NCBI GenBank assembly: GCA_031260965.1
Contig: JAISKK010000003.1
Coordinates: forward strand, 1-46,158
DNA length: 46,158 bases
Direction: 5' to 3'
DNA from: Desulfovibrio sp.
GTDB lineage: Bacteria; Desulfobacterota; Desulfovibrionia; Desulfovibrionales; Desulfovibrionaceae
Below the pieces are notes generated by a model, which made no database searches, had not been told where the DNA came from, and worked only from the letters and a program-made list of their open reading frames with translations. This document shows, one piece after another, positions 2,857-25,274 of this stretch (position 1 is its first letter; every line of letters starts with the position of its first letter). The translations under genes were made by a program, and so were the position numbers.

Positions 2857-3465
2857 ATGATTGTTATAGACGGACAGGAAAGCGCGCTTTCGCTTTCCAA
2901 TTATGCCAATCTGGAGGAACTGCTGGTCAAGGTTATCGAGGAAGAAGGCCTTGGCGACCGTATTGTCACGGATGTGCTGGTGGATGACGAGGCTTTTTCC
3001 GAGCTCTATCCCCATCAGGCCGAGGATATCGAATCCGACGGCTTCAGCCGCGTGGAAATACGCACGGTGTCCGCTGACCAGATGGCGGGAGATATTGTCG
3101 AAGAACTGCCCAAAGTAATCAACATCATGGCCGTCGGCAGCCGCCGGGCGGCGGAACTGCTGCGCGAGGCGGATCTGTCGGAAGGTCTTGAAGTGCTCCA
3201 GGATATTATCGCGGTCAGCCGGGAACTTCTGAACACCATCTATGTTCTGCGCAGCCAGTATTCGTCCGGTCCATGTCGGGAGCTTGACGCCATGTCCGAG
3301 AGCCTCGGCGATTTGCTGGGCGAGATTGCGGACGTTATGAGCAATGAAGACTGGATGCTGGTCGCCGATTTGCTTGAATACGAATATGTACCCGCCTGCG
3401 AAGGCTGGCGTGGAGTTATCGACGCCCTGGAGCGGGATGTGCGCGCGGCGAAAAAGGCGGCCTAG
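2857..3465 (+). CDS. Conserved-looking protein of unknown function, 202 aa
   Basis: An acidic, mostly helical soluble protein (MIVIDGQESALSLSNYANLEELLVKVIEEE...). It has no signal peptide or membrane segment. The N-terminal 80 residues look like an alpha/beta domain and the rest is helical with many Leu and Glu (VLQDIIAVSRELLNTIY; DLLGEIADVMSNEDWMLVADLLEYE). I recognise no catalytic motif. ATG 2857 follows AAGGAG at ideal spacing; the ORF-track start 27 codons upstream is in non-coding sequence. It is followed after 18 bp by another small helical protein, so the two are probably co-transcribed. A link to flagellar export or assembly is possible but only a guess. Its TAG stop lies inside a palindromic repeat. 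Confidence 0.75.
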   Translation: MIVIDGQESALSLSNYANLEELLVKVIEEEGLGDRIVTDVLVDDEAFSELYPHQAEDIESDGFSRVEIRTVSADQMAGDIVEELPKVINIMAVGSRRAAELLREADLSEGLEVLQDIIAVSRELLNTIYVLRSQYSSGPCRELDAMSESLGDLLGEIADVMSNEDWMLVADLLEYEYVPACEGWRGVIDALERDVRAAKKAA

Positions 3466-3498
3466 AGCAGATGAACGTTAAAAATGTATATCCGCTCC
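3463..3498. repeat. Dispersed palindromic repeat, copy 1 (degenerate)
   Basis: The segment TAGAGCAGATGAACGTT...AATGTATATCCGCTCC matches, arm for arm, the near-perfect palindrome at 21871-21909 and the right arm at 23866-23882. The arms here pair at about 11 of 16 positions. It begins with the TAG stop of the 202-aa gene and contains the first possible ATG (3484) of the next ORF in its right arm. This suggests an insertion at the gene junction that now supplies coding signals. Confidence 0.6.
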
Positions 3499-3879
3499 GC
3501 AGGGCGCTCTGAGATGTGCGCGATCGCGGCCCTGATCGACGAGGCCATGGCCTTGGCGCAGGAAGAAGGACAAGCCCTGTCGGATCAGGATGTGGACAGG
3601 GCCGAAGACCTTTCCCTGAAAAGAGCCAAACTTGTCAGGAAAATCATGGAAAGGGCCGCCGCTACGGCAGAGCCGGGGCAGGACGGAGAATTTGACCTCA
3701 GAGCGGCTTTGCTGCGTATGCGCACAGTCCAGGAAGAACTTCTGGACAAGGCGGAAAAGCTGCGCGATGACTTGCTCAGGCAACGCCAGACCGGGCGCAA
3801 AGTGACGGTCTATTTTGACGGGGACCGCCGCCTCAGTCAGGAAAACAAACGCGCTCTTTATTGCGACGCTTTATCCTGA
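3484..3879 (+). CDS. Small helical protein, unknown function
   Basis: A 131-residue hydrophilic, almost wholly helical protein. It has heptad-like stretches (ALSDQDVDRAEDLSLKRAKLVRKIMERA; LLRMRTVQEELLDKAEKLRDDLLRQ) and a short basic/aromatic tail (KVTVYFDGDRR). This shape resembles small secretion or flagellar chaperones of the FliT/FlgN sort, but no diagnostic motif is visible, so this is a weak inference. The start is uncertain. ATG 3484 falls inside a palindromic repeat and gives an atypical leader, MYIRSAGRSE. ATG 3514 (MCAIAALIDEAM) begins at the first helix and may be the ancestral start (121 aa). Neither has a strong ribosome site. It probably shares a transcript with the gene before it. 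Confidence 0.65.
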   Translation: MYIRSAGRSEMCAIAALIDEAMALAQEEGQALSDQDVDRAEDLSLKRAKLVRKIMERAAATAEPGQDGEFDLRAALLRMRTVQEELLDKAEKLRDDLLRQRQTGRKVTVYFDGDRRLSQENKRALYCDALS

Positions 3880-21870: not shown

Positions 21871-21909
21871 TTAGAGCAGATGTACATTTTCAATGTAAAT
21901 CTGCTCTAA
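21871..21909. repeat. Dispersed palindromic repeat, copy 2 (best copy)
   Basis: A 39-base palindrome. The left arm (TTAGAGCAGATGTACATT) and right arm (AATGTAAATCTGCTCTAA) pair over 18 bp with a single mismatch around a TTC loop. It lies between divergent genes (queA and the membrane-protein gene), so it is not a terminator for either. Related copies are at 3463 and 23849. I do not recognise it as a named element. Confidence 0.8.
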
Positions 21910-23848: not shown

Positions 23849-23882
23849 ACATCTGTATACATTTCCAATGTTTATCTGCTCT
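23849..23882. repeat. Dispersed palindromic repeat, copy 3 (right arm conserved)
   Basis: The right arm AATGTTTATCTGCTCT matches the repeat at 21871-21909. The left side is degraded, and only the inner TATACATT pairs well around a TCC loop. It lies at the junction of the opp remnant and lysA (convergent). On the minus strand its right arm forms the last two codons and stop of lysA (AGC AGA TAA). Confidence 0.6.
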
Positions 23883-25143
23883 GGTCCGGATAAACCCGGA
23901 GCAGATCCTCCAGGCAGTCTCTGCGCCGGACAAGACGGCAGCCTCCGTCGGCGCCGATCAGAACTTCAGCCGGACGCAGACGCTGGTTGTAATTGGAACT
24001 CATGGAGTGACCGTAGGCCCCGGCGTCCAGAATACCGACGATGTCGCCCTCGGCCAGTTCCGGCAGTTTCCTGTCTTTGGCCAGCACATCGCCGGTCTCA
24101 CAGATATTGCCGACTATGGTCTGGCGCAGCAGGGGACGCGGCCCCGGCAAGGCGGGGTAGACTTCCACATCGTGGAAGGAATCATAAATCATGGGCCGGG
24201 CCAGGACGGTAAAACCGAGGTCTGTGCCCACATAGCGGACCGGACCGTTGTTTTTTACCGCCAGGGTCGTGCCGAGCAGGATGGAACATTCGGCAGCCAC
24301 GTAGCGCCCCGGCTCAATGATAAATTTGCCGGTGAACGCGTGCCGCCTGCGAAAATTATCAAGCAGGACGTCGAAGCGGCTGCGGAAGTCGGCAAGATCG
24401 AGGCGCTGTTCGCCCTTGTATTTACGGTAGGGGATGCCGAAGCCGCCGCCGAAATCGATAAGCTCCAAACCGGGGAATTCGGCCGCCGTCTCCAGAAGCC
24501 AGCGCGCGGCCTCCAGATATGGAAGAGGGTCCATGAACAGGGAGCCTACATGCTGGTTAAGGCCTATGAGTTTCAGGTCATATTTCTTGAGAGCGACACG
24601 CATGGCCCCGAAATCTTCCGGGGTCACGCCGAATTTGGTGTTCTTGCCGGCCGTCACCACTTTGGAGCTATGTCCGGCCCCGATGCCCGGATTGACGCGC
24701 GCCATAATCTTGCCGCCCGGATTGACGCGCCCGAAACATTCAATCTGGGCGACGGAGTCCACGCTGACGTGGTCCGCTTTGGCATAAGCCAGGGCCAGTT
24801 CCTCGGAGCTTACATTGTTGCAGACATAACAGATTTGTTCCTTTTTGAATCCGGCCCGTTCAAGCAGGGCGACCTCTCCCGGACTCATGGCGTCGGCGAT
24901 CAGGCCTTCCTCACGGATGATGCGCAAAAGATGCGGGTTGCCGTTGGCCTTGGTTGAATAGCAGACCTTGAATCCCGCTTCGCCGGACAGGCCTTTCATG
25001 TCCCGGCAACGTGCCCGCAGGATGTTTTCGTTATATACATAAAGGGGGCTGCCGAAGTCGCGGATCAGGTCATGCGGGTTTTGCGCCCCGAAAAAATTCA
25101 GATCCGCGCTATAGCTGTTTCTAAGTGCTTGGCTTTCTTTCAT
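23872..25143 (-). CDS. lysA: Diaminopimelate decarboxylase
   Basis: The last step of lysine synthesis, meso-diaminopimelate to L-lysine, PLP-dependent. It has 423 residues from ATG 25143, which follows GAAGAAAAG; the ORF-track start four codons earlier is GTG. The fold-III PLP Lys lies in VCYSTKANGNPHLL (about K65). Other family blocks are GFKKEQICYVCNN, ARVNPGIGAGHSSKVVTAGKNTKFG, LNQHVGSLFMD, LIDFGGGFGIPY, IIEPGRYVAAEC, VGNICETGDVLAKDR and GAYGHSMSSNYNQRLRP near the active site. The last residues, DQSR, are encoded by a palindromic repeat, so the C-terminus has probably been remodelled. Confidence 0.96.
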   Translation of the reverse strand: MKESQALRNSYSADLNFFGAQNPHDLIRDFGSPLYVYNENILRARCRDMKGLSGEAGFKVCYSTKANGNPHLLRIIREEGLIADAMSPGEVALLERAGFKKEQICYVCNNVSSEELALAYAKADHVSVDSVAQIECFGRVNPGGKIMARVNPGIGAGHSSKVVTAGKNTKFGVTPEDFGAMRVALKKYDLKLIGLNQHVGSLFMDPLPYLEAARWLLETAAEFPGLELIDFGGGFGIPYRKYKGEQRLDLADFRSRFDVLLDNFRRRHAFTGKFIIEPGRYVAAECSILLGTTLAVKNNGPVRYVGTDLGFTVLARPMIYDSFHDVEVYPALPGPRPLLRQTIVGNICETGDVLAKDRKLPELAEGDIVGILDAGAYGHSMSSNYNQRLRPAEVLIGADGGCRLVRRRDCLEDLLRVYPDQSR

Positions 25144-25274
25144 GCTTTTCTTCACTGGGGTTGGAGTTTTTGCAGTTCATTAAACTGTCTGGGCGGACTG
25201 GTCAAGCGCCGCCAGTACCTGATTCACAGGTCTGCGTAGAAGTTTGCGGATCGGCTGCGGGATTTAAGGAAAAA

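Follow-up and report, generated by a model that had tools for sequence, protein, structure and literature searches.

Genes and repeat at the junction

The window analyzed here is the whole 46,158-nt stretch of contig JAISKK010000003.1 from a gut Desulfovibrio sp., in which a palindromic repeat lies between two co-directional genes, hereafter gene 1 and gene 2, and most likely represents a miniature inverted-repeat transposable element (MITE) inserted into the stop codon of gene 1. The window is contig C147 of genome G000, an incomplete metagenome-assembled genome (MAG) of 2.46 Mb in 164 contigs, and its nearest named relatives are Desulfovibrio MAGs. G005 and G014 denote sister species and G001, G007, and G012 congeners; D. 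cuneatus DSM 11391 is one of the genomes in the genus set.

Gene 1 (2857-3465; all features are on the forward strand unless stated otherwise) is an open reading frame (ORF) of 202 amino acids (aa), which begins with ATG 2857, is closed by TAG at 3463-3465, and is conserved across the Desulfovibrionaceae. Searches against Pfam and NCBIfam gave no convincing match. An imperfect palindrome of 33 nt, GAGCAGATGAACGTTAAAAATGTATATCCGCTC, occupies 3465-3497, and an ATG in its right arm (3484-3486) opens an ORF of 131 aa (MYIRSAGRSEMCAIAALIDEA...). A second ATG in the same frame, at 3514, begins gene 2 (3514-3879, 121 aa), the start of which is shared with relatives. The gene 2 family shows a weak likeness to the flagellar chaperones FliS/FliT, with sub-threshold E-values of 0.0075 and 0.031 in single members. 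That gene 2 is a pseudogene is ruled out by its intact frame and a ratio of nonsynonymous to synonymous substitution rates (dN/dS) of ~0.2 versus the sister species, synonymous sites being near saturation.

The junction was compared with that of 12 congeners, in all of which the gene 1 stop (TAA or TAG) is followed by 1-2 nt and the ATG of gene 2, as in GCG TAA C ATG (G005), GCA TAA A ATG (G014), and GCC TAG TC ATG (G007). Only one of the 13 congeneric loci, that of the window, carries the insert, and since it is missing at the 12 other junctions, which provide clean empty sites, the insertion is specific to this lineage. The window junction reads GCC TA[GAGC...GCTC]TGAG ATG, which suggests that the ancestral junction was TAAG ATG and that the TA of the stop codon (CTAAG) served as the target. 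Based on this alignment, the TA at 3463-3464, bases 1-2 of the ancestral stop, is old target DNA and forms the left TA of a target-site duplication, and only the G of the present TAG codon belongs to the element.

The inserted element (3465-3509, GAGC...GCTC) is 45 nt long. It matches copies C64, C1, and C149 of G000 through the left-end palindrome (hairpin I, 3465-3497, delimited by pattern searches and family alignment), the GAGC of which is shared with the terminal repeat, and through CGCAGGGC (3498-3505), and then skips to GCTC (3506-3509), the right terminal repeat of the consensus. The window copy is therefore an internal-deletion derivative in which CGCAGGGC is what remains of the first bases of hairpin II (compare TTGCAGGGC in the C64 copy). 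The TG at 3510-3511 is probably the right TA of the duplication, decayed by one substitution, with TGAG corresponding to the TAAC and TAAA of G005 and G014.

The original prediction, a palindromic repeat copy inserted as a mobile element exactly at a gene junction, is thus borne out by the 12 empty sites and by the dispersed family, TA duplications, and IS630-type ends described below. It had also taken the TAG as the first codon of the repeat, now used as stop signal. This is correct for the third base, G 3465, but the TA is target sequence, the position of the stop is ancestral, and the unit extends beyond the palindrome to 3509.

The repeat is part of a dispersed MITE family

In order to establish that the repeat is real, its 24-nt core was searched for with up to three mismatches; the expectation of 0.00 matches in shuffled windows excludes chance. 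A strict palindrome pattern gave two matches in the window against 0.01 expected, 10 in the whole G000 genome, where a reversed control pattern gave none, 38 in G007, and 13 in G012. A repeat search confined to the window missed the family, which was found by whole-genome pattern and covariance searches. With the covariance model we identified 76 copies in G000, 144 in G007, and at least 150 in each of G005, G010, and G014; in total, the model matched 25 of the 119 genomes sampled across the family, which fall in 11 of the 44 genera represented. Rfam at gathering thresholds gave no match for the repeat. In G112, a well-assembled genome of another genus in the same family, more than 20 copies have near-identical model scores, probably reflecting a very recent burst of the MITE.

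When aligned with their flanks, the palindromes were seen to form the left portion of a larger element of ~122 nt, with the consensus GAGCAGATTGACATTGAAAATGTATATCTGCTC-TGCAAGGATTTGCCGGCAAATCCTTGC-CGCGGGATTG...CAATCTCAAGCGTAAAATGCTC between two TA dinucleotides and a right end reading ...AAAATGCTC before the TA. Full copies carry terminal inverted repeats, GAGCA...TGCTC, corresponding to GAGC...GCTC in the window copy, and TA is found directly at both ends in 20 of the 27 full-length copies measured. The full unit contains three hairpins, and changes on both sides of the stem were observed among sequences for 10 of 37 predicted pairs, from few subfamilies. For hairpins II and III (family alignment columns 36-115), pairing has been maintained through such changes between subfamilies, which may reflect selection on RNA or single-stranded DNA or just the history of the subfamilies. 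The element is a short, non-coding, multi-copy, dispersed MITE of the IS630/TA class.

Two further copies lie in the window. The one at 21873-21907 is a solo palindrome between TAs, TTA/GAGC...GCTC/TAA, lacking the remaining element. Solo copies of this kind occur elsewhere in the family, and as both ends of the left hairpin mimic the terminal repeat, this hairpin alone may be able to transpose. The copy at 23859-23882 (reverse strand) is partial; the TAA (23874-23872) of a 428-aa gene on the reverse strand (23872-25155) is located inside it, and the last residues of this gene are therefore derived from the repeat.

Target choice and stop codons

Target choice was analyzed for 74 copies with flanks, from which the element was excised in silico and genes were called by codon usage; 35 of these copies have intact TA duplications. 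Among the 35, 26 occupy YTAR targets, compared with 95 of the 353 TAs available in the intergenic intervals that hold them, and the window site (C-TA-A) conforms to this preference. Because TAA and TAG read TAR, part of the preference falls on stop codons, which were hit by seven of the 35 intact copies. A crude null of all other TAs suggested strong additional targeting of stops (6/28 vs. 7/322). This excess disappeared when the null was restricted to YTAR TAs of the same intergenic interval (six YTAR insertions in stops observed, 5.8 expected), although genes were called heuristically and the counts are small. The YTAR preference alone thus accounts for the approximately one-fifth of copies found in TAA/TAG stops. 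Other copies in G000 lie at similarly tight junctions: at C153:32566-32688, the upstream co-directional gene stops at the element and the downstream gene starts 2 nt beyond it, and at C1:26528-26650 the gaps to the two co-directional genes are 3 and 6 nt.

A candidate IS630 driver

PF13358, the IS630-family transposase, is common in the genus. A complete IS630 in the sister species G014 (C41:1-998, 998 bp, PF13358) is bounded by perfect ends of 20 nt, TAGAGCATTTTAACTTTGAA, and contains two ORFs of 126 and 224 aa that overlap, an arrangement that suggests programmed frameshifting. The end of this IS630 and the right end of the MITE have TAGAGCATTTTA in common, the MITE right end reading inward TAGAGCATTTTACGC, the left end of a G007 MITE variant TAGAGCAGATCAACTTTGAAAA, and the insertion sequence TAGAGCATTTTAACTTTGAAAA. 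A diverged relative in G007 bears TAGAGCATTTTGACTTTCAT at one end. The G014 IS630 is the likely driver of the MITE family, and because the ends match and the target is TA, the MITE would have been moved in trans by its transposase, by the same reasoning as for RUP and IS630-Spn1 (PMC2229807). In G001, the same IS630 ends flank 149-bp units of a different MITE subfamily (C8:75645-75793, C32:11225-11373, and C49:3566-3714), and contig C103 of G000 holds a different IS630 element with long terminal repeats, TAGTCGATCCTTAAAAACCG.

Start site and translation of gene 2

The start methionine of gene 2 in the relatives (MCAIAALIDEA, MSAIRSLVEEA, MFPTTAMLAEA) aligns with 3514, and in 52 of 79 assessable family members the gene starts 1-6 nt past the upstream stop. 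The Shine-Dalgarno sequence of the relatives is located in the last codons of gene 1 (AAGGCGG or AAAGGAG, 6-9 nt before the ATG), with predicted energies of -4.1 to -8.1 kcal/mol. The ancestral motif in the window, in the GAAAAAGGCGGC region of the gene 1 3' end (3448-3459), now lies ~55 nt from 3514, which is preceded by CAGGGC (-3.1 kcal/mol; background median -3.0). It was also considered whether the hairpin draws the old Shine-Dalgarno sequence near 3514, but the predicted fold pairs the Shine-Dalgarno sequence itself.

The original prediction had noted the ATG at 3484 with its atypical leader and the natural start at 3514, both of which we recovered, but had regarded the repeat as supplying a start signal. 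If 3484 were the working start, the protein would gain a 10-residue leader, MYIRSAGRSE, from the transposon. The frame is indeed open from 3484 through 3514, 3484 is nearer to a ribosome terminated at 3465, and the Shine-Dalgarno sequence at 3514 is likewise weak. However, 3484 sits in the arm of the palindrome and has no Shine-Dalgarno sequence (-2.2 kcal/mol against the same background median), and the leader, looked for in all 12 repeat-free congeners, was present in none of them and has no homologous residues in relatives. We therefore consider initiation at 3484 unlikely. As 3514 aligns with the start of all relatives and 3484 lacks a Shine-Dalgarno sequence, the start of gene 2 is almost certainly 3514, probably reached less efficiently than in the relatives. 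Without the insert there would be neither the ATG at 3484 nor MYIRSAGRSE, and this ATG is probably an unused by-product of the insertion.

Insertion model and alternative explanations

In our preferred explanation, to which we assign a probability of about 0.92, an IS630-type MITE entered the CTAAG at the gene 1 stop, is present as a 45-nt derivative, and left the start of gene 2 in place. An IS630-family transposase would have moved the non-autonomous element in trans into this site, either as a deletion derivative from the outset or as a longer copy reduced by later loss. The insertion would have duplicated the target TA, the right duplicate later changing from TA to TG. Since the element begins with G, TAG was restored at the left junction and the gene 1 protein would have remained unchanged. 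Gene 2 would have been pushed 47 nt from its Shine-Dalgarno sequence in the gene 1 3' end, with a short hairpin before it, so that tight translational coupling was probably weakened; ribosomes may reach gene 2 by reinitiation or via the weak AGGG 9 nt upstream. Three observations weigh against this explanation: the right TA of the window copy reads TG, and a duplication follows only if one substitution is assumed; the final 12 nt (CGCAGGGCGCTC) form a short stretch, making the exact right boundary less certain than the left; and neither of the two PF13358 loci in G000, an incomplete MAG, has the ends described above.

A wider proposal is that, owing to the YTAR preference and the first base G together, insertion in a TAA/TAG stop on either strand leaves the protein unaffected, which would let the MITE colonize tight operon junctions. 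Were it true in full, the copy in the window would in addition donate a translated start and the 10-residue leader to gene 2 while uncoupling its translation. We regard this combination as improbable.

It is highly doubtful that the hairpin was selected at the junction to regulate the operon or to terminate its transcription. The hairpin does form between co-directional genes, and compensatory stem changes are found across the family, but it is present at only one of the 13 congeneric loci, no U-tract follows it, and stop codons are hit at the rate expected from YTAR. Least credible is a repetitive extragenic palindromic (REP) element spread by a REP-associated tyrosine transposase (RAYT), as, despite the short palindrome, the many intergenic copies, and the presence of single-strand Y1 transposases in the genus, the full unit has 122 nt, three hairpins, TA duplications, and inverted repeats at its termini that match those of IS630, the junction is TA/GAGC with a TA duplication and not a GTAG-type foot, the sole Y1 match in G000 falls in a reading frame of 144 aa, a length typical of IS200-type proteins, and the number of copies does not track Y1 genes, G005 having no Y1 match and at least 150 copies.

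Relation to known systems

A literature search for MITE, REP, or IS630 repeats of Desulfovibrio found nothing relevant, which does not prove that no description exists, and the MITE family, which is strongly amplified in Desulfovibrio, is apparently undescribed in the papers searched. Together with its probable IS630 driver, it is useful for masking, genome-assembly breaks, and strain typing. The junction itself offers a clean pair of filled and empty sites in which a TA-targeting MITE enters a near-gapless operon with the upstream protein undamaged, and it is a warning to annotators that the start of gene 2 should not be called at 3484.

The event is well supported but ordinary, and corresponds to the behavior of TA-target MITEs such as RUP. 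RUP, associated with IS630-Spn1, is a short non-coding repeat with a TA target, IS630-like terminal repeats, and ~100 copies, most of them intergenic (PMC2229807). The Desulfovibrio MITE resembles it in all of these and differs in sequence and host, in its three internal hairpins, and in a left terminal region that is itself palindromic and also found alone between TAs. The BOX element of Streptococcus pneumoniae provides the stop codons of many genes with no clear truncation (36 cases, PMC3049150), but is built of boxA, boxB, and boxC modules, is related to ISSpn2, and is not of the IS630/TA class. The Chunjie MITE of Geobacter uraniireducens is reported to have inserted in an operon and left the operon structure undisturbed, and has many size variants (reviewed in PMC10969869); at 178-235 bp it is larger, and the comparison is one of features. 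ERIC and Correia (NEMIS) elements are palindromic, TA-ended, and intergenic, and ERIC is also found at gene 3' ends, where it alters transcript stability (PMC2229807, PMC10969869); these belong to other hosts and are compared by their features, with no sequence relation seen. RPE-type palindromes of Rickettsia are in-frame insertions that are translated within a host protein; the insert described here has an open frame from 3484 onward, but the start that gene 2 shares with its relatives is located downstream of it.
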